Virus record (IMG/VR): IMGVR_UViG_3300043424_000660
Coordinates: 1-38,138 of that record
Length of the DNA: 38,138 bases
Source: a virus
Strand: one strand, 5' to 3'
The position numbers and the translations under genes were made by a program. Under the pieces are notes generated by a model, which was given only the letters and a program-made list of their open reading frames with translations, searched no databases and was not told the DNA's origin. Shown here piece after piece: positions 1 through 38,138 of the stretch. Positions within the stretch are counted from its first letter, which is position 1, and every line of letters starts with the position of its first letter.

Positions 1-19
1 GTTTGACAGTCGCTCGTTA
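1..19 (+). repeat. Sequence shared upstream of both small terminase alleles
   Basis: The first 19 bases match 35102-35120 at 18 of 19 positions (core CAGTCGCTCGTTA). Both copies lie just upstream of a small terminase gene, after which the two sequences diverge. The position suits a packaging recognition site, a promoter element or a recombination junction; the sequence alone does not decide between these. Confidence 0.6.
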
Positions 20-46
20 CGAATCCGAGTGTTCAATATTTGACTC

Positions 47-712
47 GTGTTCAATAGCGTGGGCGTTACTGAACTCGCAAAACAACTCGGATGCACCAAA
101 GGCCTCGTCTCCATGCTGGTCAAGCGTGGGATGCCGACCGGATCGGTAGATGCAGCGAATGCCTGGCGCGCCATCAACGCTCCGCCGCGCAACCGCAAAG
201 ACAAAGCCAACCGATCAACGCCGCCACCGAAGGCTACCCCGGCACCGGCTCAACCGCTACAAACGCAACCGCCCACCGCCAAGGTATCAAATGATACCAA
301 GCCGATGGAATCAGCCAACACGCCGAAGCTCTCGCTTGATCGTGCGATCGCTGCCGAAGACGCCGCTCATCAAAAACTAAAAGAAATCGAACTCGGAGGC
401 GGATCGATCGAAGACTACCGCAAGGCCAATCAGGTTTACATCGCGGCCAGAAACAATCGGGTGAAAGCTCAGAAGGATTATGACGAGTGGCAGCGGATGC
501 AACAGATTACGATCTTTACTGCTGAAGGGTTGGAGTTTCTTCAAAGAATCCTGCTTCCCGTCCGGCAGATGGCCGAGGTCATGCCGAAAACCATGGCCCC
601 GCGTTTGGCGATGCAGCCGCAAAAGATGGTCGAGAAGACCTTGTTCGAATGGAGCGCCCGGTTGATTGAGAACGCAAAAGACGAGATATGGCCGCGAGCA
701 TTGAAGTCTTAA
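47..712 (+). CDS. Terminase small subunit, allele A
   Basis: Probable DNA-recognition subunit of the packaging motor, 221 aa. The N-terminus (about residues 6-28, VTELAKQLGCTKGLVSMLV) looks like a winged or helix-turn-helix DNA-binding motif of the Nu1 type. A Pro/Ala/Thr-rich linker follows at about 45-90, then a helical, charged C-terminal half likely to oligomerise and contact the large subunit. The start is a GTG; another in-frame GTG lies four codons downstream and no ribosome site separates them. It overlaps the large terminase gene by 25 bases, the classic terS-terL arrangement. It shows no obvious similarity to the second small terminase at 35157, which is 134 aa. Function is inferred from position plus the HTH. 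Confidence 0.7.
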   Translation: MFNSVGVTELAKQLGCTKGLVSMLVKRGMPTGSVDAANAWRAINAPPRNRKDKANRSTPPPKATPAPAQPLQTQPPTAKVSNDTKPMESANTPKLSLDRAIAAEDAAHQKLKEIELGGGSIEDYRKANQVYIAARNNRVKAQKDYDEWQRMQQITIFTAEGLEFLQRILLPVRQMAEVMPKTMAPRLAMQPQKMVEKTLFEWSARLIENAKDEIWPRALKS

Positions 713-2391
713 TGCAGGCCGCCAACGCGATGCTCGCACCGATCGACACCCGAACGGTCTGCGAGTGGTGCGAGGATGAGGTCATGCTTTCGGAGCGGCA
801 GACTCAATCCCCTGGACATTTCAGCACCGACCTCACCCCCTACCTGCGCGAGCCGCTCGAGTGTTTCGGCGATGTCGATGTCAGCGACCTCGTGCTCGTC
901 TTTGGGACGCAAACCGGCAAGACGACGATGGTTCAAGCAGGCACCGCCTGGCGGATCGTGAACAAGCCCCAGCCCGTCGTGTGGGTCATGCCCACCGAAG
1001 GCCTCGCCCGATCCTTTTCCGAGACGCGGTGGCTCCCGCTCTTCGAGGACAGCGCCACCCTCCGCGAGCAAATTCCCAGCGACCGGCACAAATTAAAAAA
1101 CCTCGAGCAGCACTTTTCGCGGTGCTCCCTCGTCTTCGTCGGCAGCAACTCCCCCGCGAACCTCGCCAGCCGCCCCGCCGGTCTCCTGCTCATGGACGAG
1201 GTGGACAAATTCGCCCGCGAGACCGACAGCGAGACCAGCGCCCTCTTCCTCGCCGAGAACCGCACGAAAAGTTTCGTCGGCGCGCTCAGAGTCAAGACCT
1301 CCACACCCACCACGCCCGACGGCGCGATCTGGCAGGAATATCTCAAAGGCACGCAGGAGAAATTCATGCTCGAGTGTCCGCATTGCCACGAGCGCATCGA
1401 GCTTTTGTGGGAGCAGGTGAAGTGGGACGCCACCGCCAAGGAGTCCGGCAAGTGGAACATGGCCCGCGTCGAGGAGTCCGCGCATTACCTGTGCCAGCGA
1501 TGCGGTGGCGAAATCAATGACGGCCAGAAAATGGAAATGCTTGGTGATGGAAAATGGCAAGCCACCAACCCCACCGCGCAACGCGGCTTCCGATCCTTCC
1601 ACCTAAACTCCCTTTACGCCCCGTGGCGCTCCTGCACATTCGGCGCGCTCGCCATCAAGTTCCTCCGGGACAAAGGAACGATCAACGGCCTCCAAGATTT
1701 CACGAACAGCACCATGGCCATGCCGTGGGAACAGATCGAAACCTCCATCGGCGAGTCGAACATCCTCGCCCTCCGTGGCGACTACCAACGCGGATCCTGC
1801 CCGATCGAACCCCGCGTCATTGTCACCTGCGCCGACATCGGCCAGGACAAACAGTATTGGGTCACGACCGCCTTCGCCGAAGACGGCTCCTCGTATGTCC
1901 TCGACTACGGAACCACCCTCGCCATTGAAGACCTTTTACTCGACGCCCCGCGCCGCGAATACACCACGCCGAGCGGACAAAAGCTCGCCCCCGAGTGCGG
2001 CCTCCTCGACTCCGGTTTCGCCACCTTCCGCGTCTATGCCGCCTGCCAAGCCAGCTCCGGATTCTACCACCCGGCGAAAGGATCAGGCGCAACCTTCGGA
2101 TCCAAAATCTCCCGCACCACGATCCCCGAATTCTCGAACATCGTCCTTTATACTTTTGTCGACCACGCCATCAAAACCGAACTCTTCACCGACCGCATCC
2201 GCAACGCAAAGCCCCCGGTGAAAATCCCCGCCGATGTCAGCGAAGACTTCCTCCGTGGTTTGAGCGGCCAGCGCCTCGTCCCCCGCAAGACCGCCAGCGG
2301 AACGGATCTCATCTGGAAATCCGTTGCCCAAGATCACTACATGGACGCCCTCAAACTCTGCCACATCGCGTGGCACATTTTGAAAAACTAA
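688..2391 (+). CDS. Terminase large subunit (GpA family), allele A
   Basis: Motor ATPase and nuclease that cuts and packages phage DNA into proheads, 567 aa, normal for the GpA family. The Walker A motif GTQTGKTT is at residues 73-80 and the Walker B LLLMDE at 166-171. Two CxxC knuckles (C230/C233 and C269/C272) form a zinc-ribbon insertion between ATPase and nuclease. The nuclease domain begins around CADIGQD (acidic D383) and includes GLLDSGF. The gene starts inside the small terminase and is followed by the gpW/portal pair. A second, divergent large terminase lies at 35558; their nuclease halves share motifs (ADxGQD, GLLDSGF, AKGSGA) but the ATPase halves differ strongly, suggesting an exchanged module rather than a recent duplication. 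Confidence 0.93.
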   Translation: MAASIEVLMQAANAMLAPIDTRTVCEWCEDEVMLSERQTQSPGHFSTDLTPYLREPLECFGDVDVSDLVLVFGTQTGKTTMVQAGTAWRIVNKPQPVVWVMPTEGLARSFSETRWLPLFEDSATLREQIPSDRHKLKNLEQHFSRCSLVFVGSNSPANLASRPAGLLLMDEVDKFARETDSETSALFLAENRTKSFVGALRVKTSTPTTPDGAIWQEYLKGTQEKFMLECPHCHERIELLWEQVKWDATAKESGKWNMARVEESAHYLCQRCGGEINDGQKMEMLGDGKWQATNPTAQRGFRSFHLNSLYAPWRSCTFGALAIKFLRDKGTINGLQDFTNSTMAMPWEQIETSIGESNILALRGDYQRGSCPIEPRVIVTCADIGQDKQYWVTTAFAEDGSSYVLDYGTTLAIEDLLLDAPRREYTTPSGQKLAPECGLLDSGFATFRVYAACQASSGFYHPAKGSGATFGSKISRTTIPEFSNIVLYTFVDHAIKTELFTDRIRNAKPPVKIPADVSEDFLRGLSGQRLVPRKTASGTDLIWKSVAQDHYMDALKLCHIAWHILKN

Positions 2392-2396
2392 ACGCC

Positions 2397-2425
2397 CCTC
2401 TGTGTCCTCTGTGCTCTCTGTGGTT
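2397..2425 (-). repeat. CACAGAG-type dispersed repeat
   Basis: Read on the minus strand this is an array of 9-base units of the form CACAGAGGA beginning AACCACAGAG. A second array in the opposite orientation lies at 27929-27956. In packaging allele B the equivalent spacer (37238-37286) lacks the array and keeps only the flanking GTGGTTAAA. Such arrays occur between genes in some environmental bacteria; here it separates terminase from gpW. Confidence 0.65.
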
Positions 2426-2436
2426 AAATCCTAGTC

Positions 2437-2459
2437 TTTGACACGCCCGCCGAGGCGTG
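2437..2459 (+). promoter_or_regulatory. TTTGACAC element with start-codon hairpin (gpW, copy A)
   Basis: TTTGACAC is followed by the inverted repeat ACGCC-CGCCGA-GGCGT, whose 3' arm contains the GTG start of gpW at 2457. TTGACA ends 13 bases before the start codon. No Shine-Dalgarno and no -10 box are visible. The same arrangement recurs at several other gene starts in the window. Confidence 0.6.
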
Positions 2460-2729
2460 ACCGACCTCGACAAAATCAGCGGCGTTAAATCCTACCTCCG
2501 CCGAACCAAGAACACCGCCGAACTCCAGGCGCTCGCCGACGCGGCGTTTCTCTCCGCGTCCGAGGAAGTCGTCATCACCAGCATCAGCGGCGACGGCACC
2601 GCCTCAAGCGGACAGGTCTCGTTTCCGAAGTGGCTCCTCCTCCAAGCCCTCGAGGAGATCCTCGCTGAGCCAAACGGCCGGCAACTCTGCACGGTCCTCG
2701 ACCGCTCGTTTTTCACCACCCCCGTTTGA
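2457..2729 (+). CDS. gpW-like head-tail connector, copy A
   Basis: A 90-aa protein between large terminase and portal, the slot occupied by gpW in lambda-like phages. The predicted fold (helix, a short beta hairpin around residues 38-55, then the helix WLLLQALEEIL) suits a gpW-type head-completion protein, although similarity cannot be proven by eye. The GTG start is preferred because it lies in the TTTGACAC/hairpin element and because copy B at 37287 begins identically. The two copies encode identical proteins while differing at about 20 nucleotide positions, all synonymous by my count, so the product is under strong purifying selection. The TGA stop sits inside the next TTTGACAC element. 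Confidence 0.65.
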   Translation: MTDLDKISGVKSYLRRTKNTAELQALADAAFLSASEEVVITSISGDGTASSGQVSFPKWLLLQALEEILAEPNGRQLCTVLDRSFFTTPV

Positions 2730-2755
2730 CACGGCGCTCGGAGTCAATGGCTCCG
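2725..2755 (+). promoter_or_regulatory. TTTGACAC element with start-codon hairpin (portal, copy A)
   Basis: TTTGACAC overlaps the gpW stop codon. It is followed by CGGAG-TCAATGG-CTCCG, a five-pair stem whose loop holds the ATG of portal at 2747. There are 15 bases between TTGACA and ATG. It is conserved at 37555-37585 in copy B. Confidence 0.55.
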
Positions 2756-4201
2756 AAAATCAAGAAATCAAGTTGGGGCGGACCTCGCCCCGGTGCAGGC
2801 CGTCCGCGCAAAGACCCCAAGGCAGCGGCATTTGAAGGTGCCGAGCACTCCCGCGAGCGGAGCTTGATTGTGATGAATACCTACGAGCCAAAGCGCGAAC
2901 TCGCGCCACGGACTCGCATGGAGCTGATGCAACGCGCCCGCTGGCTCTACAACAATTTCGGCACGGCTTCCTATCTCATCGAGCACCTCGCCCAGCGCGC
3001 CGTCGGCACGGGCATCGTCCCCAAGGCCCGCACCGCAGACAGCGCATGGAACCGCCAAGCCGAGCGCGCCTTCGAAGACCGCGCTTGCGGTGATGCGTGG
3101 GCCTTCGATGCCAGCGCCCAGGTGAATTTCTACGGCGCTCAATCTCTCATCCTCCGCCAAGTCGCCTGCGACGGCGACTTCTTCGCGCAATTTCTTTCCA
3201 CCCAAGCAGGCGGCACCCGCGTCCGATTCATCGGCGCCGAGGCGGTCGGATCCACGGCCAACAGCAACGAGCGCGCTTTCGACGGCGTTCTTCTCGACCG
3301 CTTCAACGCCCCCGTCAGCTATCGCGTCATTACCGACCGGGCCTCTGGAAAATTTCAAGATGTCCCAGCCGCCGACATGCTGCACTTCCGGCACATCCGC
3401 CGGGCAGGATACCCCCGTGGAGTCTCGTGGCTGCATAACGCCATCACCAACTGCCACGACCTTGTCGAATATCTCGCCTACGAAAAAGGATCCGCCAAAG
3501 CAGGCGCCCAGATCGGATTTGTCGTCACCAGCAACGAAGCCCAAAAGATCGGCCTCGGCGCAGGCAAGATGATCACCGGCCCCAACGGCGAAGAGATCAG
3601 CACCGAAGCCCTCTACAACGGCACGCTCATCCCGCGCCTCAAGCCCGGCGAGTCCATCCAATCATTCAAAAACGAACACCCCGCCGGAGCCTTCGAGCCA
3701 TTCATCCGCACCATCATGGGCGAGATCGCACGAGGCATGGGCCTCCCGCCCGAGGCACTCATGATCTTCGTCGGCAGCGCAGGCACCGAATTTCGCGGTC
3801 TCCTCGAAGTCGCCCAAAACTTCCTCGAGCGGCTCCAGCAAATGCTGATCGATCAATTCTGCCGGCCGCTCTGGAAATTCTGGATCTACCAAGAAATCCA
3901 AGCCGGGCGTTTGCCCTACCCTGGAGATGATTGGTGGCGCTGTGAGTTCGTCGCCCCGCGAAAAATTACCGTGGACAACGGCCGCGACGGCCGCCTCTAC
4001 GCCCAGCTTCTCGACTCCGGTTACATGTCTTGGGAGCGCTACTGCAACCTGCACGGCCTCGATGCCGAAGCCGAAGAGGACGACATCCTCAGCGCCTACA
4101 TTCGCCGCAAAGAAAAATGCGAATCCCTCGGACTCAACCTCGGCGATGTCTTCCCCGCCCAAGCCGAAGCTCTCACCCAACCAACCCAACCCACACCATG
4201 A
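2747..4201 (+). CDS. Portal protein (lambda gpB type), copy A
   Basis: Forms the dodecameric portal ring through which DNA is packaged and to which the tail attaches; 484 aa from the ATG at 2747. Support: typical lambda-type portal segments such as ARWLYNNFGTASYLIEHLA near the start, VRFIGAE, FNAPVSYRV, and a GMGLPPEAL helix-turn around residue 330, plus location between gpW and a ClpP-type protease. An upstream in-frame TTG would add seven residues, but the ATG lies in the hairpin loop conserved in both copies and is preferred. The N-terminus carries an unusual WGGPRPGAGRPRK stretch resembling an AT-hook, a motif more often seen at the front of terminase small subunits. The stop overlaps the next gene as ATGA. 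Confidence 0.9.
   Translation: MAPKIKKSSWGGPRPGAGRPRKDPKAAAFEGAEHSRERSLIVMNTYEPKRELAPRTRMELMQRARWLYNNFGTASYLIEHLAQRAVGTGIVPKARTADSAWNRQAERAFEDRACGDAWAFDASAQVNFYGAQSLILRQVACDGDFFAQFLSTQAGGTRVRFIGAEAVGSTANSNERAFDGVLLDRFNAPVSYRVITDRASGKFQDVPAADMLHFRHIRRAGYPRGVSWLHNAITNCHDLVEYLAYEKGSAKAGAQIGFVVTSNEAQKIGLGAGKMITGPNGEEISTEALYNGTLIPRLKPGESIQSFKNEHPAGAFEPFIRTIMGEIARGMGLPPEALMIFVGSAGTEFRGLLEVAQNFLERLQQMLIDQFCRPLWKFWIYQEIQAGRLPYPGDDWWRCEFVAPRKITVDNGRDGRLYAQLLDSGYMSWERYCNLHGLDAEAEEDDILSAYIRRKEKCESLGLNLGDVFPAQAEALTQPTQPTP
3182..3308 (+). repeat. 127-bp segment identical to the window's 3' end
   Basis: These 127 bases inside portal are identical to 38012-38138, the last 127 bases of the window. The base immediately before differs (C at 3181, T at 38011). 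The offset is 34,830, the same as for the gpW and portal starts. Confidence 0.95.
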
Positions 4202-24168: not shown

Positions 24169-25203
24169 ATGGCACGGCAAATGGTTGAAATTGCCCCCGT
24201 GAGCGCAACAGACGCAACACGGCGCAACAAGCCAGTTGTCACCATTCGCACGGCGACGGTGCGGGGGGAACCTCGCTTTGTTGTTTTTTCTCGGATCAAT
24301 GGCACGACAAAGAGGGAATTTTTTCGCACCCAGACGGAGGCGAGGGTTCATCAGGCGGCACTCTTGGAGAAGCTGGAGACTCGGGGGACGGAGGCTTTCA
24401 CCGGCCCGGCGGGAATGACGGTAGCGCAGGGGTGGCGGGAGTTCTGCCTGGCGCGGATGCCGAAGCTGAAGGACGGAAATCACCGGCGCTTGCTGGAGTG
24501 GTGGTGGGGAAAATTTGTGGCCGAGTATGGCGCGAAGGAACTCCGCGACATCAAGGCGATTCACATCGATGCGTTTCTCTCGCGGCCGGGATGGTCGGGG
24601 ACTACGGCGAATCAGGGCTTCGTGTATCTGCGGTTGGTCTGGAATTGGCTTGTGCGCTACGAACTCACCTCGACCAATCCGGTGCTGAAGATCGATACGC
24701 CGAAGGCGGCGCCGGAGCATCACTTGTTGACGGTGCCCGAGGTGAAGCGTCTTTTGGCTCTCACGAAAAAAGATGCGCGCCTCCGGGCTTGGCTCGTGCT
24801 CGGAGTTTTTGGCGGCATGCGAATCTCAGAGGTTTGGCGGTGCGAGCCGAAGCACATCGAAAAAGATGAGATTTTCATCCCGATCCGCAAAACGACGGAC
24901 ATCCAACCGAGGCCTCATTTCGTGCCGATCCTCCCTGCCCTCCGCCGGCATCTGCCAAAAAAGTGGCCGCGCATCAACGAGGACATCATCAAGCGCGCCC
25001 GCACGAAGCTGGCCGAACAAATGAAGTGGGAGGAATGGCCGCAGAATTGCCTTCGCCACACGGCGGCATCCATGCACCGCGCCATGTGGCAGGATTCCAA
25101 TAAGACGGCTTATTTTCTCGGGCATTCCTCGGCGCGGATGGTGGAGGAAAAATATGCGCGGGGCGTGCGAAAAGCGGACGCGGAGAAGTTCTGGGCGCTT
25201 TAG
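24169..25203 (+). CDS. int: Tyrosine-family integrase
   Basis: Site-specific recombinase, 344 aa, starting at an ATG with GAAAGGG upstream. An N-terminal arm-binding region is followed by a SAM-like core-binding domain (about 80-175) and a catalytic domain. Catalytic residues: Arg218 in GVFGGMRISEV, a likely Lys at 241, Arg296 in QNCLRHTAAS, His319 in FLGHSS and the nucleophile Tyr329 in VEEKYAR. The usual His three residues before the second Arg is Asn293; integrases with N-x-L-RH occur in Verrucomicrobiota and Planctomycetota mobile elements. The 5' coding region overlaps three CGCAACA repeats. It faces the minus-strand RHH gene. Confidence 0.92.
   Translation: MARQMVEIAPVSATDATRRNKPVVTIRTATVRGEPRFVVFSRINGTTKREFFRTQTEARVHQAALLEKLETRGTEAFTGPAGMTVAQGWREFCLARMPKLKDGNHRRLLEWWWGKFVAEYGAKELRDIKAIHIDAFLSRPGWSGTTANQGFVYLRLVWNWLVRYELTSTNPVLKIDTPKAAPEHHLLTVPEVKRLLALTKKDARLRAWLVLGVFGGMRISEVWRCEPKHIEKDEIFIPIRKTTDIQPRPHFVPILPALRRHLPKKWPRINEDIIKRARTKLAEQMKWEEWPQNCLRHTAASMHRAMWQDSNKTAYFLGHSSARMVEEKYARGVRKADAEKFWAL
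24204..24229 (+). other. CGCAACA repeats right of attP core
   Basis: Three copies at 24204-24210, 24213-24219 and 24223-24229 inside the first codons of the integrase gene. Together with the left pair they flank the core, consistent with integrase arm sites, though here they are also coding sequence. Confidence 0.45.
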
Positions 25204-26987: not shown

Positions 26988-27920
26988 ATGAAAATAATAT
27001 CTGGAAAACAACAAAGACCACAGCGGGTGGTCATTTACGGGGTGGAGTCGGTCGGCAAGACGACTTTCGCCAGCAATTTCCCAAATCCTCTCTTTCTCGA
27101 CATCGAGGGCGGATCGAACCACCTCGCCGTGGACCGCGTGGCGGTCTCGAGTTGGAAGGAACTCGGGCAGTGCATCACCGAGGCAGCGGCGACGGACTAC
27201 GAGACGGTCGTGATCGACTCGGCAGATTGGGCGGAGCGTCTTGCGGTGGAGGACTTACTTGCAACCAATAAGAAGCAATCCCTCGAGGATTTCGGCTTTG
27301 GCAAGGGATGGGTCATGACGGCGGAAAAGGTCAGCCGGTTCCTGACCGCTCTGGATAAGCTCATCGATGCCGGCAAGCATGTGGTTGTCCTGGCGCATTC
27401 CAAGGTTCAGCGCACCGAGCCGCCGGACATCCTCGCCGCTTACGATCGTTACGAACTCAAGCTATCCAAGCAGTCCTCGCCGTTGGTTAAAGAGTGGGCG
27501 GATGAGTTGTGGTTTTTTAGATTCAAAACCAAGGCCGTCTCGCAGGAGAACGGCAAGGCGAAGGGCATCGGGGGCAAGGAGCGCATCATCCTAACCACCC
27601 ACTCGGCGGCCTACGACGCCAAGACCCGCTCGGGTCTCGCAGAAGAACTCCCGATGGAATGGGAATCGGTGGCGCATGTGTTTGGGAAGCCTACACCAAA
27701 AACCTCGGAGCCTGTTGAAATCCTCGGTGCCGAGACGATGGCGGCCATGGAGTTGTTGGAAGCCAACGAGGAGGCGGTGAATGCCTTCCTGACCGGCAAC
27801 GGATCCATCCAAGAGGGCGAGACCTGGCGTAATGCCTCGCCGAAGTTGCTGGCACAAATCAAGGCCCGCCCGCAGGCGCTCATTGCCAAGGCGACCGCAC
27901 AAATGGAGGTGGCAGCGTGA
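26988..27920 (+). CDS. Sak4-like RecA-fold ATPase (AAA_24)
   Basis: 310 aa. The start has a rare good Shine-Dalgarno (AGGAG at 26976-26980, seven bases before ATG). Walker A GVESVGKTT is at about 18-26 and Walker B TVVIDSADW at about 72-80. This is the phage ATPase family that works with ssDNA-binding proteins in single-strand annealing recombination. The nuclease and DUF669 genes downstream complete a Sak4-type recombination module. The C-terminal ~100 residues are helical and likely mediate assembly. It overlaps the next gene as GTGA. Confidence 0.85.
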   Translation: MKIISGKQQRPQRVVIYGVESVGKTTFASNFPNPLFLDIEGGSNHLAVDRVAVSSWKELGQCITEAAATDYETVVIDSADWAERLAVEDLLATNKKQSLEDFGFGKGWVMTAEKVSRFLTALDKLIDAGKHVVVLAHSKVQRTEPPDILAAYDRYELKLSKQSSPLVKEWADELWFFRFKTKAVSQENGKAKGIGGKERIILTTHSAAYDAKTRSGLAEELPMEWESVAHVFGKPTPKTSEPVEILGAETMAAMELLEANEEAVNAFLTGNGSIQEGETWRNASPKLLAQIKARPQALIAKATAQMEVAA

Positions 27921-28228
27921 GCGGTTTGACCACAGAGGACACAGAGGGCACGGAGGTTACGACGGATGAATGGGCGCATGGAGGGCCAGCGTTCCCATGC
28001 GTTAATTACACGAAGCCAAAGGGTGTTGGAGTGAGTATCATGACAATCACTGGCGGCATGACCCTACGCGACTGGTTCGCTGGGCAAGCATTGACTGGCA
28101 TTGCCGAAGCAATCAGATCGGCGAACCTTATCACAAACGCGAATACGCCATCCGAGGACATTGCTGCAAAATGGGCTTTTCGGTTTGCAGACGCTATGCT
28201 GGCGGCTCGTAAGGAGGGCGGGAAATGA
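27917..28228 (+). CDS. Small phage protein with repeat-derived N-terminus
   Basis: 103 aa. The recognisable part is WAHGGPAFPC, GMTLRDWFAGQALTG and KWAFRFADAMLAARKE, typical of a widespread small phage protein family of unknown function whose members usually begin near GGPAFP. The first ~16 residues (LTTEDTEGTEVTTDE) are encoded by a CACAGAG repeat array at 27929, which therefore supplies the present start region and the GTGA coupling to the ATPase gene. The stop overlaps the nuclease gene as ATGA. Confidence 0.7.
   Translation: MSGLTTEDTEGTEVTTDEWAHGGPAFPCVNYTKPKGVGVSIMTITGGMTLRDWFAGQALTGIAEAIRSANLITNANTPSEDIAAKWAFRFADAMLAARKEGGK
27929..27956 (+). repeat. CACAGAG-type dispersed repeat inside a gene
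   Basis: ACCACAGAGGACACAGAG followed by GGCACGGAG: three units of about nine bases. It is the reverse orientation of the array at 2397-2425 and lies within the N-terminal codons of the 27917 gene, translated as TTEDTEGTE. Confidence 0.7.
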
Positions 28229-29235
28229 TTGCCAAGGAAATCTCCCCTTCCTCCCTTCCGAAACTCGCCGAGTGCGCGCTTTACACGAGCGCACCCGGCA
28301 CCAGCGCGGCGGCGGAGCGTGGGACGCTAATCGACAAAGCGATCCGCGAGCTTTTGGTGGATGATCCGACGACCTTCGACTTGCTGAGCGCGGAGGATCA
28401 GGCGGTGGCTCGGTGGGGCGTGGAGGAACTTCGGACGCTCTCGGGTGGCTACCATGTGGAGACGCGGGAGGAATATCTCGGCATGGAGGTGCTGGGTCTC
28501 TCGAAACCCGGCACGGCGGATGCGGTATGCGTTCGGGCGCAATGGGTGGCGGACATCAAGACCGGCCAAGTGCGGAACTATAGGCAGCAACTCGCGGCCT
28601 ATGCGCTCGCCTGTATGCACGAGCACTTTGCCGACTCCTGGACGGCGCATGTGGTCTATGTGGATCAGCGACTTCGCCGCACCTACACATTCACGAGGGA
28701 ACAAGCCGAGGCGACCGTTTCGGCGGTGATTGCCGAGGCCAGCAGCCGGTTGGCGGAGCCGACGCCTAATGAATACTGCGGCTGGTGTGCTCATCAAAAC
28801 GGGTGCCGAGCCTTGGTGCGTCAATCCTCCGAGGCCTTGGCTTTGGTTCGGTCCGAGACCTCCCTCGAGGCGATCCGCGACCAAATCCTCGCCAACCCGG
28901 TCGAGCTATCCGCCTTCGCCGCGAACTGGAAAATCGCTGAAGACAAAATTGCCGAGCCTGTTTTTAAGGTTCTCAAAGAAAAGCTGATCGCTGGTGAGGA
29001 CATTCCCGGCTGGAAGGTCACGACCTCCGCTGGGCGTCAATTTGTGGAGACGCCGGCCATCGCTGCAGCAGCCGCCAATGTTTCAAAAGAGACGCTCATC
29101 CTCGCTCTAGGCGGGTCAATGAGCGCCGACAAATTTCGCCAGTTCTGCACCGAGTGCGGCGTGGAAGTGGATGAATCCGCAGTCAAGTCAGGGAAACCAA
29201 TCAACACCCTGCGCCAAATCAAAACCAAAAAATAA
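28225..29235 (+). CDS. Cas4-like PD-(D/E)XK nuclease (DUF2800 type)
   Basis: 336 aa. Nuclease core: an Asp in GTADAVCVRAQW at about 98-109, then VADIKTGQVRNYRQQLAAYA at about 110-129 (D-x-K plus the Q-LxxY helix of RecB/Cas4-type nucleases). CGWCAHQNGC near residue 190 with a Cys near the N-terminus (AECAL) could form the iron-sulfur cluster of this group. It probably makes the ssDNA substrate for the Sak4-like ATPase and DUF669 protein encoded alongside. The gene overlaps its upstream neighbour as ATGA, with a three-base gap downstream. Confidence 0.82.
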   Translation: MIAKEISPSSLPKLAECALYTSAPGTSAAAERGTLIDKAIRELLVDDPTTFDLLSAEDQAVARWGVEELRTLSGGYHVETREEYLGMEVLGLSKPGTADAVCVRAQWVADIKTGQVRNYRQQLAAYALACMHEHFADSWTAHVVYVDQRLRRTYTFTREQAEATVSAVIAEASSRLAEPTPNEYCGWCAHQNGCRALVRQSSEALALVRSETSLEAIRDQILANPVELSAFAANWKIAEDKIAEPVFKVLKEKLIAGEDIPGWKVTTSAGRQFVETPAIAAAAANVSKETLILALGGSMSADKFRQFCTECGVEVDESAVKSGKPINTLRQIKTKK

Positions 29236-29238
29236 GTT

Positions 29239-29673
29239 ATGCCTACCTACAAACAGAGTGAACCGAAACCCGTCTATTTCGTGGAGCCGGGAACCTACAA
29301 AGTCGAAATCGTCAACGCCATGGAGAAGCTCTCCAAGGCCGGAAACCCTATGATCAAGCTCATTTGCCGAGTCCAAATCGGCGAGGGCGCCAAGGGGCCG
29401 GAAGTCCATGAGCACCTGACATTCACGGAAAAAGCGGGGTGGAAGATTGACCAAGTGCGCGAAGCCTGCGGGTTCGCCGTGGTGCCAGGCGAGGACATCG
29501 ATGTTCAGCCCGAGGATTTCATCGGCAAGACGGCCACGGTCGTTCTTGGCGAAGAAGAAGGAGCCGACCCCGGCCATCGCTTTAACACCCTCGAACGCTG
29601 GGTGTCACCCAAAGCCTCGGCCCCCGCGCCGAAGGCCAAACCTGCCAAAGAGACGGACGACATCCCGTTCTGA
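29239..29673 (+). CDS. DUF669-type ssDNA-binding protein
   Basis: 144 aa. It has the DUF669 pattern: VEPGTYKVEIVNAMEKLSK at the front, KLICRVQIGEG, and EDFIGKTATVVLGEEEG, an OB-like arrangement. The C-terminus after a Pro/Ala/Lys linker is KETDDIPF, which ends exactly like the acidic tip of bacterial SSB (DDDIPF). That tip recruits replication and repair enzymes, so this protein likely acts as the phage SSB for the recombination and replication genes around it. Confidence 0.82.
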   Translation: MPTYKQSEPKPVYFVEPGTYKVEIVNAMEKLSKAGNPMIKLICRVQIGEGAKGPEVHEHLTFTEKAGWKIDQVREACGFAVVPGEDIDVQPEDFIGKTATVVLGEEEGADPGHRFNTLERWVSPKASAPAPKAKPAKETDDIPF

Positions 29674-29716
29674 TTCAACCTTCCGGGGCGCGGCGTGGAT
29701 ACGCGCAGTTTTTTTA

Positions 29717-30181
29717 ATGTATTCAATCCAAGATAATTTATTCGACCTCGAGCCAATTACTAAAAGTGATTTGCTACTGAGCGGTAATGATAATTGCAGG
29801 CTTGGAGTTGTAACTGAAATGATTTTTGCAACCATAATGCTCGAGCGTGGTTATGATGTTTTTTCTCCGCTTGGGCATTCGCAAAAAGCCGATTTAATTG
29901 TTCATAAGCCACCATTTAAGTCCAAAGCAATACAAATAAAAAAAGGAACATCACGCGGTGGAGCTTCTTGGCAAATATCAACCTCCACAAAAAAAAGAAC
30001 AGCATCTGAAGGATCGGTTTACACAAATTACCAAATTGGGGATTTCGATATTTTAGCGGCTCATATCGCTGAAGTTGACTGCTGGGCCTTGTGGCGAATT
30101 GAAGAAATAGCGGGAAAAAGCTCGGTAACTTGGAACAAGTTTGAAACGCATAGGAACAATTTCGATTTATTAGATTTATGA
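29717..30181 (+). CDS. PD-(D/E)XK endonuclease (PDDEXK_11-like), AT-rich cargo
   Basis: 154 aa from the ATG at 29717. Catalytic pattern: Glu34 in GVVTEMIFATIML, Asp59 in HSQKADLIV and Gln73/Lys75 in AIQIKKG, followed by YQIGDFDILAAHIAEVDCW, the layout of small homing or repair PD-(D/E)XK nucleases. The whole gene and the next one (29717-30405) are strikingly AT-rich against the surroundings, with codons such as ATA, AAA and TTA. This signals recent transfer into the replication operon. It overlaps its partner gene at ATGA. It could be a mobile nuclease, a host-attack enzyme or a defence-type moron. Confidence 0.75.
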   Translation: MYSIQDNLFDLEPITKSDLLLSGNDNCRLGVVTEMIFATIMLERGYDVFSPLGHSQKADLIVHKPPFKSKAIQIKKGTSRGGASWQISTSTKKRTASEGSVYTNYQIGDFDILAAHIAEVDCWALWRIEEIAGKSSVTWNKFETHRNNFDLLDL

Positions 30182-30405
30182 AAGTATATTTATGCAAATG
30201 GCCTGATGGGACGATCAGCATCCTTACAGCTAATTCAAAAAGAGAATTGTATTTGCTTTTAGATTACGAGGGCGATCCGGAGCAGGCTAATGTTTATAAG
30301 CTGCCTAGCGGGTTTCACATATCAACGGAGGTAATTAACAGAAAAATCTCAGCCGATATGTGCGGATATTTTGCAGAAGCCAAGTGCAGGAAAGTAAAAT
30401 TTTAA
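30178..30405 (+). CDS. Partner of AT-rich nuclease, hypothetical
   Basis: 75 aa, AT-rich like the nuclease it overlaps. The sequence begins MKVYLCKWPDGTISILTANS and includes LLLDYEGDPEQANVYKLP. Not recognised. Its coupling to the nuclease (ATGA) and shared base composition say the two arrived together; it may be an inhibitor or accessory subunit. Confidence 0.6.
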   Translation: MKVYLCKWPDGTISILTANSKRELYLLLDYEGDPEQANVYKLPSGFHISTEVINRKISADMCGYFAEAKCRKVKF

Positions 30406-30406
30406 C

Positions 30407-30604
30407 ATGCTCCCTGAAATTACCCTCCGCCTAGCCATTTGCGCGAACGCCTGCCCGATCGGCCCACGGCTCGAGCGCGGCACGCCGTTGCCACCCTACC
30501 AGCGCACTTATGCGCTGGAGGATCAGGCGAAGGCGGAGGCGGACATGGAGAAGGTGCGGGAATACATCGAACGGAATCACAACTTAAAGAAGGGGAGGAA
30601 ATAA
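30407..30604 (+). CDS. Small hypothetical protein
   Basis: 65 aa. The C-terminal half is a predicted amphipathic helix (EDQAKAEADMEKVREYIERN) and ends in KKGRK. GC returns to the phage average here, marking the end of the AT-rich cassette. It is one base from the next gene, in the replication operon. Not recognised. Confidence 0.5.
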   Translation: MLPEITLRLAICANACPIGPRLERGTPLPPYQRTYALEDQAKAEADMEKVREYIERNHNLKKGRK

Positions 30605-30605
30605 G

Positions 30606-31058
30606 ATGGCCGGTGAATGGTTGAAAATCGAGCATCATGTGGCTGAAAAGCCCGAGGTGCTACAAATCGCGGCGACCTGCGAGATGGACCCGGATTTAGT
30701 GGTCGGCAGGCTCGTGAAGGTGTGGGCCTGGGCGTCCCGAAATTGTCCTGCCGGGGGAAGGACACACATCGCAGCGATGCCACATTTGAACACGATCGGG
30801 GGGCACGAACGCTTCGCACAAAGTATGGTCGAAGCGGGCTGGTTGAAGATCAAAGACACGGAAATGACCTTCGTAAACTTTGACCGCCACATAAGCCAAA
30901 GCGCTAAGGAGCGAGCACTTAACGCGGCGAACAAGGCGAAGCAACGGAGTCCCGATTATGTCCCGAAAATGTCCCGATCCGAGAAGGACAAAAAAGGGAC
31001 TAGAGAAGAGAAGAATAAAGAGCGCTCTAGCGAGCGCTTTCTCCCGACCTGCGTATGA
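30606..31058 (+). CDS. Putative helicase loader / replisome organiser
   Basis: 150 aa. The N-terminal ~100 residues (WLKIEHHVAEKPEVLQIA; DLVVGRLVKVWAWASRN) resemble the winged-helix domain found at the front of phage replication organiser proteins. The C-terminal tail is very basic (SRSEKDKKGTREEKNKERSS). The following gene, overlapping at ATGA, is a DnaB-type helicase, so recruitment of that helicase to the phage origin is the likely role. Confidence 0.65.
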   Translation: MAGEWLKIEHHVAEKPEVLQIAATCEMDPDLVVGRLVKVWAWASRNCPAGGRTHIAAMPHLNTIGGHERFAQSMVEAGWLKIKDTEMTFVNFDRHISQSAKERALNAANKAKQRSPDYVPKMSRSEKDKKGTREEKNKERSSERFLPTCV

Positions 31059-32326
31059 CACCGAGCGCAAAGATTATCCCGATGGTTCCCTCTGTGCCGA
31101 TCAATGAAACTGCGGAGAAGGCGGCGATCTCGTGCATCCTGCAAAACTTCGAGTGCCTGAGGGTGATGTCATGGCCGGAGGAGTTGTTTTTTAGCGAAGC
31201 GCACCGGATCGTGCTAGCGGTGGTGAAGGAGCTGGCCGAAAAGGGCGTGGCGACGGATCCGCTGGCGGTGCAGGCGAAGCTGGAGCAAAAGGGGCTGCTG
31301 GATGCCATGGGGGGCATCGATGAGTTCACGCGGCTCATGGACTACATTCGCACGAGCGACCCGGGGACGGCGGCGATTTACCGCTCGAACTTGATCGATG
31401 CGGCGCGTTACCGGCGGGCGCTGGCCGCGGTGCGGGATGCGGAGCGGGCCTTTGTGCGCCAGGAGGGGGACATCGCGGCGGTGTCGCTGGCGCTATCGGA
31501 GGCGGCGATGATGGTGGACCGGCCGAGGGAGAGCACGAAGGACCTCCTGCTCAAACTGACGGAGGAACTCGAAAACCACACGCCTGCGGAGGCATTTGGC
31601 ACCGGCATCGATCGTCTGGACCGCTGGACGAATGGCGGCGTCAAGCGGGGTGAACTCCTGACGATCGGCGCGCCGACCTCGGGCGGTAAGTCGATCCTGC
31701 TCCTCCAGATGGCAGTGCAGGCGGTCCTCGCTGGCAAAAAGGTGGCGGTCTTCAGCCTCGAGATGCCGGCCACCCAAGTCCTCGCTCGCATGGTCTCGCA
31801 CTTGGCGGGCTTTAATGTCGGCGTCTTCCGCATCGCGGGCGCCAAGGGAGCGGTCAACAAGGACATGCTGGCAAAATTCAACTCGGCGTCGGGGTTGATT
31901 TCCCAATCCGGCCTCGTGGTGGAGTCGGGCTTCACCGACATGGAGTCGATCGACGCCTCGGCGCGTGACCTCGCGGGCAAGGGCGAAGCCGACCTCGTGA
32001 TCGTGGATTATGTGCAACTCGTCCACCTGCGGGCCATGGCCTCGAACGAGACGCGCGAGCAGCATGTCTCGGAGATCACCCGGCGGCTCAAGGCGCTGGC
32101 CCTGCAACTCAACATCGCGGTCGCCACGGCCAGCCAGCTCAACGAGGACGGCAAACTGCGCGAATCCCGCGCCATCGGGATGCACTCCGACCATGTCTGG
32201 ATGATCCGCCACGGAGACGAATCTTTCATTTCGCTCGACAAAAACCGCGACGGCGAGCGCGGCCACGCGGTGCCGGTCCAGATGGACGGCGCCATCGCCA
32301 AATTCACCCAACAACAAGACTCATGA
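31055..32326 (+). CDS. DnaB-like replicative helicase
   Basis: 423 aa, near the usual length for phage DnaB. The N-terminal domain (PINETAEKAAISCILQN; FFSEAHRIVLAVVKEL) is the DnaB-N fold. The RecA-like core has Walker A GAPTSGGKS at about 207-215, SLEMP after it, Walker B LVIVDYVQL at about 311-319, and later ATASQLNEDGKLRESRAI. It unwinds DNA at the phage fork. Its stop region overlaps the 3' end of the antisense HNH gene by six bases. Confidence 0.92.
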   Translation: MTPSAKIIPMVPSVPINETAEKAAISCILQNFECLRVMSWPEELFFSEAHRIVLAVVKELAEKGVATDPLAVQAKLEQKGLLDAMGGIDEFTRLMDYIRTSDPGTAAIYRSNLIDAARYRRALAAVRDAERAFVRQEGDIAAVSLALSEAAMMVDRPRESTKDLLLKLTEELENHTPAEAFGTGIDRLDRWTNGGVKRGELLTIGAPTSGGKSILLLQMAVQAVLAGKKVAVFSLEMPATQVLARMVSHLAGFNVGVFRIAGAKGAVNKDMLAKFNSASGLISQSGLVVESGFTDMESIDASARDLAGKGEADLVIVDYVQLVHLRAMASNETREQHVSEITRRLKALALQLNIAVATASQLNEDGKLRESRAIGMHSDHVWMIRHGDESFISLDKNRDGERGHAVPVQMDGAIAKFTQQQDS

Positions 32327-35057: not shown

Positions 35058-35101
35058 GGGGGGTGGCATGGGAACCCTACCGAAACCATTCAACCATCGC
35101 A

Positions 35102-35120
35102 GTTTGCCAGTCGCTCGTTA
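35102..35120 (+). repeat. Sequence shared upstream of both small terminase alleles (copy B)
   Basis: GTTTGCCAGTCGCTCGTTA matches bases 1-19 at 18 of 19 positions. It lies in the 99-base spacer before the small terminase of allele B. Sequences on both sides are unrelated to those of allele A. Confidence 0.6.
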
Positions 35121-35156: not shown

Positions 35157-35561
35157 ATGAAAGCAAAGAAGACCCCAAAGAGAGGAAAAGGCCGCCCGCG
35201 CAATCCTGTGACGGATCACATTGCCGATGAGCTTGCTGTCACGAAACGGCAGGCGCGCAACCTTGCCGCCGAGTCCGAGACCACCGGCCTTCCCGTGGAG
35301 GACATGAAGGCCGCGAGGCTCAGGAAGCTGAAGCTCGAGGGCGACCGGATCGAGTATTTGCTCGAGGTCACCAAAGGGAAGCACATTGCAAAAGAAAAGG
35401 TAGAGGAAGAAATGATCGGCCTCGGCATGGCTGTGAAGGCTCAACTCTTTTCGTGGGTGGGTGCATTGCCTGGTCGACTCGAAGGGCTATCGGCGGCGCA
35501 GATGGTGCCGATCTTGGAAGATGAAATAAACCGGATCCTCAAAACGCTTTCCGACGAATGA
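35157..35561 (+). CDS. Terminase small subunit, allele B
   Basis: 134 aa. The start at 35157 follows a TATAATG sequence. The N-terminus is basic (KAKKTPKRGKGRPRNPVTDH) and precedes a helix-turn-helix-like ADELAVTKRQARNLAAE, then a helical charged body (KLKLEGDRIEYLLEVTKGKH) typical of Nu1-type small subunits. The stop overlaps the large terminase as ATGA. It is unlike the 221-aa allele A protein, so the two packaging modules recognise DNA with different subunits. Confidence 0.72.
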   Translation: MKAKKTPKRGKGRPRNPVTDHIADELAVTKRQARNLAAESETTGLPVEDMKAARLRKLKLEGDRIEYLLEVTKGKHIAKEKVEEEMIGLGMAVKAQLFSWVGALPGRLEGLSAAQMVPILEDEINRILKTLSDE

Positions 35562-37237
35562 TCGCAGAATTCTTCAAGCTCGGGGTGAACCCCGGCGAGC
35601 GGCTCAGTCCGGTGCAATGGATGTCTCGGCATGTCGTCGTTCCGCACTCGGCACGAAATACGCAATTCGATTCCACGACAGCGCAGTGGATGAACGAGCC
35701 AATCGAAGAGATCGCCAAAGACACGAACGACGAGATCCTTATCTGCGCACCTGTCGGCAGTGGGAAGACCACGCTTTTCGAGTCTCTGCTGGCATGGATC
35801 ATCTCGGAGAACCCCGGCCCGACATTGGTGACCGGGCAGACGGACAAAACAGCGAAGCAGTGGGCCGAGTCGCGCCTCGGGCCGATGCTCGAAGCGATAC
35901 CCTCGGTCGCCAAGCTCTTCCCAAAAGACCGGCACCAGAAGCGCAAAACCGAAATCCTCTTCCCCCACATGCCGCTCTTCATCGGAGGCGCAAACCTCAC
36001 GAGCCTTCAGGAGAAATCCATCCGCTGGGCGATAGCCGATGAGGTGTGGCGTTGGAAGCGCGGGATGCTCGAGGAATTCCGCCGGCGAACTCACGACCGA
36101 TGGAACGCCCGCCGCATCCTAGTCTCGCAAGGAGGCGAGGAGGGCGACGATTTCCATGACGCAGAAGACTTATGCGAAAAGCGCGAATTCTCCTGGCAGT
36201 GCTTATGCGGTGAAGTTCACCCGTGGGATTTCAAAAACATAGCCTTCGACCGCGAGACCGACGCCAATGGCGCCATGCTCTGGGACCGCGTGGCCAAGAG
36301 CGCCCGGCTCGTCTGCCCCACATGCTCGCACGAATTCATGGACGACCCCCGCATCCGCCGCGCCTTGTCATCCGGCTCGCGCTACATCGTGAAGTCGCAC
36401 GGCGCGCCAGGGCGGATCGCCTTTCACTACGATGCCGCTGCCGTCTGGTGGATTCCGTGGGGATCGCTGGCGGTGGAGTGGGTCAAAGCCGATCTCGACC
36501 GTAAGGCCGGAGACACCGAGGCGATGAAACAATTCGTGCAAAAGCGCAACGCCCGCCGCTGGACCGTGCAAGGCACCGGAGCCACCAGCGCCGAGGTTCT
36601 GGCCTGTCGCAAAGACTACCTTCGCGGAGCCTGCCCCATCGAGCCCGTCGCCATCACCCTCTCGGCGGATGTTGGCCAAGACACATCGCACTGGACCACG
36701 ATGGCCTTTGCAGAAAATGGCGACGCCTATGTCATCGACTACGGCACCGTCACCGGCATCGACGACATGCTCGAGGTCGCGCAGTCGCAGAAATACAAGA
36801 CCGCCGAAGGCCGGGAGGTCACGCCTATCGGCGGCCTGCTCGACTCAGGCTTCAACGCCAACGCCGTCTACCGCGCTTGCTATCTCTCGGCAAATTTCTT
36901 TTTCCCCGCCAAAGGATCAGGCGCAAACTTCGGCAGCATCTCCGAGAGCGTGCTGAAGGAATACCCCACCATGCCGCTCTACACGGTCAACGAATTCGCG
37001 TCGAAGGTCTCGCTATTCATCGACCGAATCGCCAAGCGGAAATCCCCATTTCTATTTTTCCCGAAAGACGCAGGCGAAGAATTCCTATCCGCTTTCATGG
37101 GTCAAAAAATCATCGTCAGCAAAAAAGGCCGGAAAGAATGGCGATCGGTGGCAGGTGACCACTTCGCCGACTCTGTTCGCCTCAACTACGCCTGCGCTCA
37201 ACAACTGCGCAAAGCCGGAGCCATCGAATTCAAATAA
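35558..37237 (+). CDS. Terminase large subunit (GpA family), allele B
   Basis: 559 aa. Walker A APVGSGKTT is at about 64-72 and Walker B AIADEVW at about 158-164. CLCGEVHPW and CPTC supply the zinc-ribbon cysteines; the nuclease domain begins at LSADVGQDTSHWTTMAFAE. Similarity to allele A is visible mainly from that point on (DYGT, GLLDSGFN, PAKGSGANFG); the ATPase half is much more divergent. It is followed by a spacer without the CACAGAG array, then the second gpW copy. Confidence 0.93.
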   Translation: MIAEFFKLGVNPGERLSPVQWMSRHVVVPHSARNTQFDSTTAQWMNEPIEEIAKDTNDEILICAPVGSGKTTLFESLLAWIISENPGPTLVTGQTDKTAKQWAESRLGPMLEAIPSVAKLFPKDRHQKRKTEILFPHMPLFIGGANLTSLQEKSIRWAIADEVWRWKRGMLEEFRRRTHDRWNARRILVSQGGEEGDDFHDAEDLCEKREFSWQCLCGEVHPWDFKNIAFDRETDANGAMLWDRVAKSARLVCPTCSHEFMDDPRIRRALSSGSRYIVKSHGAPGRIAFHYDAAAVWWIPWGSLAVEWVKADLDRKAGDTEAMKQFVQKRNARRWTVQGTGATSAEVLACRKDYLRGACPIEPVAITLSADVGQDTSHWTTMAFAENGDAYVIDYGTVTGIDDMLEVAQSQKYKTAEGREVTPIGGLLDSGFNANAVYRACYLSANFFFPAKGSGANFGSISESVLKEYPTMPLYTVNEFASKVSLFIDRIAKRKSPFLFFPKDAGEEFLSAFMGQKIIVSKKGRKEWRSVAGDHFADSVRLNYACAQQLRKAGAIEFK

Positions 37238-37266: not shown

Positions 37267-37289
37267 TTTGACACGCCCCCTCGGGCGTG
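37267..37289 (+). promoter_or_regulatory. TTTGACAC element with start-codon hairpin (gpW, copy B)
   Basis: TTTGACAC is followed by ACGCCC-CCTC-GGGCGT and the GTG start at 37287. Relative to copy A the loop bases differ but the stem remains paired and gains one pair. Confidence 0.6.
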
Positions 37290-37559
37290 ACCGACCTCGA
37301 CAAAATCAGCGGCGTTAAATCCTACCTCCGCCGCACCAAGAACACCGCCGAACTCCAAGCCCTCGCCGACGCCGCGTTTCTCTCCGCCTCCGAGGAAGTC
37401 GTCATAACCTCCATTTCCGGCGACGGCACCGCATCGAGCGGACAGGTCAGTTTTCCGAAATGGCTCCTCCTCCAAGCCCTCGAAGAAATCCTCGCTGAGC
37501 CAAACGGCCGGCAACTCTGCACGGTCCTCGACCGCTCGTTTTTCACGACCCCCGTTTGA
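37287..37559 (+). CDS. gpW-like head-tail connector, copy B
   Basis: 90 aa, identical in protein sequence to copy A at 2457, with about 20 synonymous nucleotide differences. It starts with GTG in the hairpin element and ends in the TTTGACAC element of portal. The synonymous-only divergence shows a diverged allele rather than a re-read of the same DNA. Confidence 0.66.
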   Translation: MTDLDKISGVKSYLRRTKNTAELQALADAAFLSASEEVVITSISGDGTASSGQVSFPKWLLLQALEEILAEPNGRQLCTVLDRSFFTTPV

Positions 37560-37585
37560 CACGGCCCTCGGAGTCAATGGCTCCG
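37555..37585 (+). promoter_or_regulatory. TTTGACAC element with start-codon hairpin (portal, copy B)
   Basis: Same layout as 2725-2755: the motif overlaps the gpW stop, and CGGAG-TCAATGG-CTCCG holds the ATG at 37577 in the loop. The stem bases are unchanged between copies. Confidence 0.55.
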
Positions 37586-38138
37586 AAAATCAAGAAATCA
37601 AGTTGGGGTGGTCCGCGCCCCGGTGCCGGCCGTCCTCGCAGAGACCCACAAGCAGCGGCCTTTGAAGGAGCGGAGCACTCCCGCGAGCGCTCCTTGATTG
37701 TCATGAATACCTACGAGCCCAAGCGCGAACTCGCGCCACGGACTCGCATGGAGCTCATGCAGCGCGCCCGCTGGCTTTACAACAATTTCGGCACCGCCTC
37801 CTATCTCATCGAGCACCTCGCCCAGCGCGCCGTCGGCACCGGCATTGTCCCAAAGGCCCGCACCGCCGACACCGCATGGAACCGCCAAGCCGAGCGCGCC
37901 TTCGAAGACCGCGCTTGCGGTGATGCGTGGGCATTCGATGCCAGCGCCCAGGTGAATTTCTACGGCGCGCAATCTCTCATCCTCCGCCAAGTCGCCTGCG
38001 ACGGCGACTTTTTCGCGCAATTTCTTTCCACCCAAGCAGGCGGCACCCGCGTCCGATTCATCGGCGCCGAGGCGGTCGGATCCACGGCCAACAGCAACGA
38101 GCGCGCTTTCGACGGCGTTCTTCTCGACCGCTTCAACG
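37577..38138 (+). CDS. Portal protein, copy B (3' end cut by window)
   Basis: The first 187 codons of a portal nearly identical to the 2747 protein, with a few changes such as K to R and K to Q near residues 22-25 and S to T around residue 98. Nucleotide differences are scattered up to 38011; the final 127 bases are identical to 3182-3308. The reading frame is open at the window edge, so the rest is presumably the same as 3309-4201. Confidence 0.9.
   Translation, partial: MAPKIKKSSWGGPRPGAGRPRRDPQAAAFEGAEHSRERSLIVMNTYEPKRELAPRTRMELMQRARWLYNNFGTASYLIEHLAQRAVGTGIVPKARTADTAWNRQAERAFEDRACGDAWAFDASAQVNFYGAQSLILRQVACDGDFFAQFLSTQAGGTRVRFIGAEAVGSTANSNERAFDGVLLDRFN
38012..38138 (+). repeat. 127-bp terminal segment identical to 3182-3308
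   Basis: An exact match to the interior of the first portal gene, running to the last base of the window. 127 equals the largest k-mer size allowed by the SPAdes assembler, so this looks like a graph overlap that closes a circle of 34,830 bases. Confidence 0.93.

Follow-up and report, generated by a model that had tools for sequence, protein, structure and literature searches.

The window analysed here (38,138 nt) is an IMG/VR virus record which, as a preliminary description had noted, carries two terminase modules (1-2391 and 35157-37237) flanking one phage backbone. The terminase, gpW-position, portal and integrase genes and the cos elements described below are given on the plus strand. The first module (A) encodes a small terminase subunit (TerS_A, 59-712; profile phrog_57, 7e-5), modelled as a helix-turn-helix (HTH), a disordered linker and a long helix, and a large subunit of 567 residues (TerL_A, 688-2391). 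The second module (B) encodes a TerS_B of 134 residues (35157-35561; phrog_57, 1.8e-11) and a TerL_B of 559 residues (35558-37237). Both large subunits combine a GpA-type ATPase with a nuclease, and the large terminase domains PF05876 and PF20454 score above cut-off in TerL_A (3.6e-61 and 2.4e-25) as well as in TerL_B (4.2e-27 and 1.3e-23). Each module is followed by a gene for a 90-residue protein (2457-2729 and 37287-37559) and by a portal gene (2726-4201; PF05136, 8.4e-52), of which the B path contains the 5' part (37556-38138). Position and size make gpW, the head-tail joining protein of lambda, a candidate name for the 90-residue protein. It matched no Pfam, PHROG or PDB profile, its low-confidence model gave no significant fold match by Foldseek, and a comparison by VIA-align 2 was uninformative (best Z 4.5, with lambda gpW absent from the rows).

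A BLASTP alignment of TerL_A with TerL_B covers almost the full proteins at 31% identity (E 1e-77). Their ATPase halves had been described as strongly diverged, and domain-wise alignment agrees, with 24% identity in the ATPase half versus 40% in the nuclease half. The accompanying remark that the two TerS proteins look unrelated was too strong. BLAST found no alignment between TerS_A and TerS_B, but common membership in phrog_57, which is matched by the TerS proteins of types A, B, B' and C (some weakly), speaks against their being unrelated. The TerS_A gene itself is confirmed, but not its previously given length of 221 residues, counted from a GTG at position 47. The most likely start is position 59 (217 residues), because an M-G-[VI]-[TS]-E-L start is conserved in 36 relatives and the codon at position 47 falls at the second of two cosB repeats. 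In the TerS_A model (pLDDT 73.5), helices 3-10, 14-22 and 30-40 form the predicted HTH; a TerS fold search returned no significant match.

Downstream of the terminase genes the two variants converge. The two 90-residue proteins are identical (90/90) though their DNA differs, and the portals agree at 189 of the 193 residues common to A and B, both in line with the preliminary description. At the DNA level, 55 of 874 positions differ across the gpW-position gene and portal start, and the differences fade to none towards the stretch 3182-3308. This stretch is repeated exactly as the terminal 127 nt of the window (38012-38138), the longest repeated suffix of the sequence. An assembler working at k = 127 leaves an exact overlap of 127 nt. 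From this terminal copy we conclude that the window is a lasso-shaped assembly, a single path across two co-occurring variants and not one molecule. Variant B's left end lies within a closed loop (3182-38011; 34,830 nt), and that of variant A forms a branch (1-3181) that joins the loop inside the portal gene; variant A sequence covers positions up to 3308. This reading draws on the 127-nt overlap together with the contig ends described below.

Since A and B stand on the same contig, 34.8 kb apart, one could also propose a single genome that bears both modules, either in tandem or through a duplicated left end. We consider this very improbable. An exact 127-nt overlap is an assembly signature, the A-B spacing equals one genome unit, and each module also occurs alone with the same portal type. 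Furthermore, 48 of the 50 relatives that were searched as whole records contain one TerL; one record has none and one record of 57.5 kb has two, along with two portals (the remaining relatives were searched over up to ~13 kb). On the strength of the overlap and the single TerL in 48/50 whole records, we rejected the presence of both modules in one genome. A second proposal, that 1-2391 stems from an unrelated contig joined in error, is compatible with the composite nature of the window and with the abrupt beginning of A at position 1, and appears to us less probable still. Module A runs continuously into its own diverged gpW-position gene and portal start, with no differences at the join, and position 1 is a cohesive end. 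The search for each combination in relatives showed that A and B both recur with the window-type portal in independent assemblies; locus L085, for example, encodes a TerS_A of 96% and a TerL_A of 88% identity next to the same portal type. These independent contigs and the continuity into the diverged gpW and portal start led us to discard the stray misjoin. As a practical consequence, IMG/VR records of such kind can be composites of two variants.

To describe the genome ends, we used related IMG/VR contigs gathered with the portal, TerL_A, TerL_B and two DNA patterns. The first bases of 23 distinct contigs are precisely GTTTGMCAGTCG or a near variant, another 12 distinct contigs stop directly behind this motif, and 83 distinct sequences cross it. 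Such fixed, unique genome ends are those of a cos packaging phage. Given these exact starts and ends, the 12-mer GTTTG(C/A)CAGTCG is a cos end common to all members, and variant A begins at position 1 with its left cohesive end (cosN GTTTGACAGTCG, 1-12). The cosN of the B path (GTTTGCCAGTCG, 35102-35113) is crossed uncut. The preliminary description had placed A and B between the same upstream 19-mer and the same gpW. The shared gpW holds, and the 19-mer is this physical genome end, identical at 18 of 19 positions with one C/A difference at position 6. The A and B overhangs accordingly differ at 1 of 12 positions; lambda-like phages with mismatches at 2 of 12 overhang positions stay viable (PMC4669245). 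Left and right ends overlap by 12 nt, which are present as a single copy in joined molecules, as expected of filled-in 5' ends. We therefore infer 12-nt 5' overhangs. A pile-up of contig ends alone cannot distinguish these from a 12-bp terminal repeat, which would be implausibly short. The length of the cosN agrees with that of the lambda end, GTTTGCCAGTCG bears no resemblance to it in sequence, and two-fold symmetry of the lambda style is absent (2 of 18 positions match their own reverse complement). Twenty nucleotides upstream of cosN lies a conserved right-end element (GGCATGGGAACCCTACC, 35065-35081) that is found before cos in A- and B-type phages and is a candidate cosQ. This analysis illustrates that metagenomic contig ends alone can locate cos to the base. 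Separately, loci L018, L030, L031 and L033 begin at GTGTTGGGCCACTCTCGTCAGT and L078 begins at GTGTTGAAAGACTCTCGTCATT, ~58 nt before an A-type TerS; these starts probably represent another type of cos that A-type terminases use.

The phages, presumably of freshwater origin given the kind of samples, are temperate, as indicated by an integrase gene at 24169-25203 (phrog_1, 9e-31). Prophages, circles or concatemers are therefore possible sources of the contigs that cross cos, and virions of those that end there. A contig of a Verrucomicrobia MAG from another collection, the one close match in genomes, is among the 23 that start at cosN. Of the annotated phages, Akkermansia phage Moulinsart (ON453896) comes closest; it is also temperate, with a GpA-type TerL (34% identity to A, 26% to B) and with a small protein, portal and Clp-like protease in the same order, and its portal is 27% identical. 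Together, the MAG match and the kinship to Moulinsart make Verrucomicrobiota the probable host. A search of record ON453896 for the cosN of these phages gave no match, and a literature search found no description of these phages or their cos.

The relatives reveal how often terminases change behind this end. After deduplication we retained 159 TerL loci, 96 of type A, 34 of type B and 29 of a third type C, which forms a single clade on the portal tree and uses the same cosN. When portals are clustered at ≥85% identity, both A and B occur together in four clusters, with A/B counts of 28/16, 8/5 (the cluster of the window), 4/7 and 1/1; one portal sequence is found unchanged in three loci, two of type A and one of type B. 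A portal tree with 133 rows requires 18 or more switches between A and B, and well-supported branches force at least 13 of them; these counts are approximate, as recombination may have blurred the portal tree as well. The mean identity of B-type TerLs is 93%, and their portals drop to 38%. The mixed clusters, tree changes and identical portals support the earlier suggestion of an exchange of the entire terminase that leaves the portal in place.

The borders of the exchanged segment can be read from pairwise comparisons. In 114 of 114 A-B pairs with homologous right ends, homology ends 16-27 nt (median 17) past the first cos base; in A-A and C-C pairs it runs further past cos than in A-B pairs. 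Right ends beside cos are common to A and B phages, as exemplified by a 60-nt stretch that is identical in L110 (A) and L173 (B). In the pairs L110/L173 and L234/L003, strong body homology returns downstream of TerL. Because homology stops after cos and resumes downstream of TerL, the cassette begins directly right of cosN and extends through the whole of TerL. Judged from sequence, the exchanged unit is a putative cosB with TerS and TerL, located between the common cosN and the gpW-position gene. The presence of candidate recognition DNA inside the cassette supports the original wording that packaging specificity is exchanged, as far as specificity can be predicted from sequence.

A landmark accompanies the right side of cassette A: the repeat CTCTGTGTCCTCTGTG... 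occurs twice in the window, in inverted orientation (2396-2416 and 27928-27948), and its copy at 2396-2416 marks the right border of the cassette. Of 138 loci, 27 also have it in the gap between TerL and gpW, a region that makes up ~5% of the bases searched and holds a large share of the 65 matches. The same gap serves as a cargo site in many loci (e.g. L081 and L189), with a 71-residue protein without known role (38 loci) or an ATP-dependent DNA ligase on the opposite strand (8 loci). Another cargo site is the TerS-TerL gap of many A-type loci (e.g. L127, L113 and L139), which contains an N6/N4 methyltransferase with a ParB-like N-terminus (36 loci), a C5 methyltransferase or a Mom-family protein. 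The A cassette of the window has no such cargo between TerS and TerL.

The DNA between cosN and TerS_A offers a candidate binding site. Two GTTCAAT iterons, 18 bp apart (31-37 and 49-55), precede the conserved TerS start, and all 36 A-type cos sites with readable iterons have two 7-bp repeats at offsets +31 and +49. Six of these sites combine GTTCA(A/G)T iterons with the TerS helix region CTKGLVSMLVKRG, and the other 30 combine GTTGCA(T/C) iterons with the helix region IDKSVVSRL(V/F)KKG. Iteron type and TerS recognition helix thus covary perfectly in type A (36/36), and in the TerS_A model helix 14-22 falls over the covarying stretch. These data are consistent with the idea that TerS binds the cosB iterons. 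The iteron/helix type switches at least three times on the TerL tree. Between loci L142 and L143, the C-terminal half of TerS is nearly identical and TerL is similar, and the two differ over the first 239 nt, which comprise cosB and the TerS HTH. Exchange therefore takes place at two nested levels, and DNA recognition (cosB with the TerS HTH) swaps also within one terminase type. The cosB of type C contains inverted GGAAC/GTTCC repeats, and no obvious repeat or iteron was found in that of type B.

As a whole, a two-variant composite together with exchange of cosB/TerS/TerL cassettes behind one cosN is in our view a highly probable explanation. According to this model, all members would cut concatemers at the common cosN to create the 12-nt ends seen at the contig termini. 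The comparisons show that cosB, TerS and TerL are replaced as a unit by strongly diverged versions, with the right end including cosN, the gpW-position gene and the portal being kept. Each TerS would read its own cosB through the HTH and position its own TerL over the common cosN, and either TerL could dock on the same portal. The reading and docking steps are suggested by the iteron/helix covariation and by the repeated occurrence of diverged TerLs beside the same portal. Such an exchange would most likely occur by recombination in lysogens or co-infected cells. It may be tolerated since the cassette forms a functional set of its own, with cosN having to fit the right end. Resident prophages are a possible driver, as a phage with a specificity of its own would not start packaging on them. 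It has been argued that different specificities should benefit phages whose hosts carry related prophages (PMC4669245).

Lambda, 21 and N15 provide the precedent for exchange of packaging specificity (PMC4669245, PMC9026076). Like these, the phages described here have 12-nt cohesive ends with a conserved cut site, a left end with the terminase genes ahead of a small head gene and the portal, and a specificity that appears to be set by cosB and the N-terminal HTH of TerS. They appear to work like lambda, 21 and N15 but stand outside the lambda-like cos group of PMC4669245, because their 12-mer differs from the lambda cosN. The principle is known; new are its scale, how strongly the exchanged motors differ and the mapping of the boundary. 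The TerLs of lambda and N15 are 64.9% identical (PMC4669245), compared to 31% for the TerLs exchanged here, where TerL travels with TerS. The cosB is compact, with TerS starting ~55-60 nt from the end versus 191 nt in lambda and 89 nt in N15 (PMC9026076), and unlike in lambda, 21 and N15, at least three cosB layouts occur with one cosN. The diversity in these phages is larger than the only modest diversity reported among lambda-like phages (PMC4669245). Redirection by PICI cos-rpp also leaves cosQ and cosN in common and alters specificity by a different DNA reader beside cos (PMC9026076, PMC6739421); in our case, complete terminases are replaced in full phages. As in lambdoid mosaicism, functional blocks are swapped between related phages at gene borders, except that the block here starts from the physical end of the genome and brings its own candidate recognition DNA with it.

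The coincidence of the left boundary with cos could have a mechanical origin. Cohesive ends of different phages might anneal and be ligated in a co-infected cell, so that the left end of one phage lands after the right end of the other and a single crossover in gpW or portal completes the recombinant. The 12-mer is common to three terminase types, homology ends within 27 nt of cos in every A-B pair, mismatched lambda and N15 ends still cyclize (PMC4669245), and in the 57.5 kb record ~38 kb separate two units that differ in their terminases and have a cos motif in front of each. Yet function alone predicts the same boundary, since cosB has to travel with TerS and cosN has to match the right end; the A-B pairs had been selected for homologous right ends; and the long record may be an assembly or prophage artefact. 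We regard end joining as possible but rather unlikely. It would give the left boundary for free and is not needed, and ordinary recombination is the parsimonious reading. With equal reserve, we can envisage the common cohesive end as a universal joint, with cos being the exchange site of a mobile left-end cassette in addition to the packaging site. If true, one crossover after end-to-end joining in a mixed infection would suffice to move a complete packaging cassette.

Returning to ordinary cassette recombination behind one cosN, these phages offer a naturally occurring series, replicated independently many times: a single cosN is used with three or more distantly related terminases, and one portal type with two of these. 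Such a series opens two questions to testing, namely the extent to which TerL can diverge without losing the ability to cut this cosN and to dock on this portal, and whether resident prophages impose diversifying selection on packaging specificity.

Two further observations concern recombination in this group. The 57.5 kb record (IMGVR_UViG_3300027746_000023, 57,528 nt; loci L141 and L071) combines a type C with a type A terminase and different portals, and the right ends before its two cos motifs share no similarity; it is either a mixed concatemer, a pair of tandem prophages or an assembly chimera. In the window, positions 26988-32326 hold replication and recombination genes, among them an AAA_24 ATPase, PD-(D/E)XK nucleases, a DUF669 protein and a DnaB helicase, and recombination encoded by the phage itself could drive the mosaicism.
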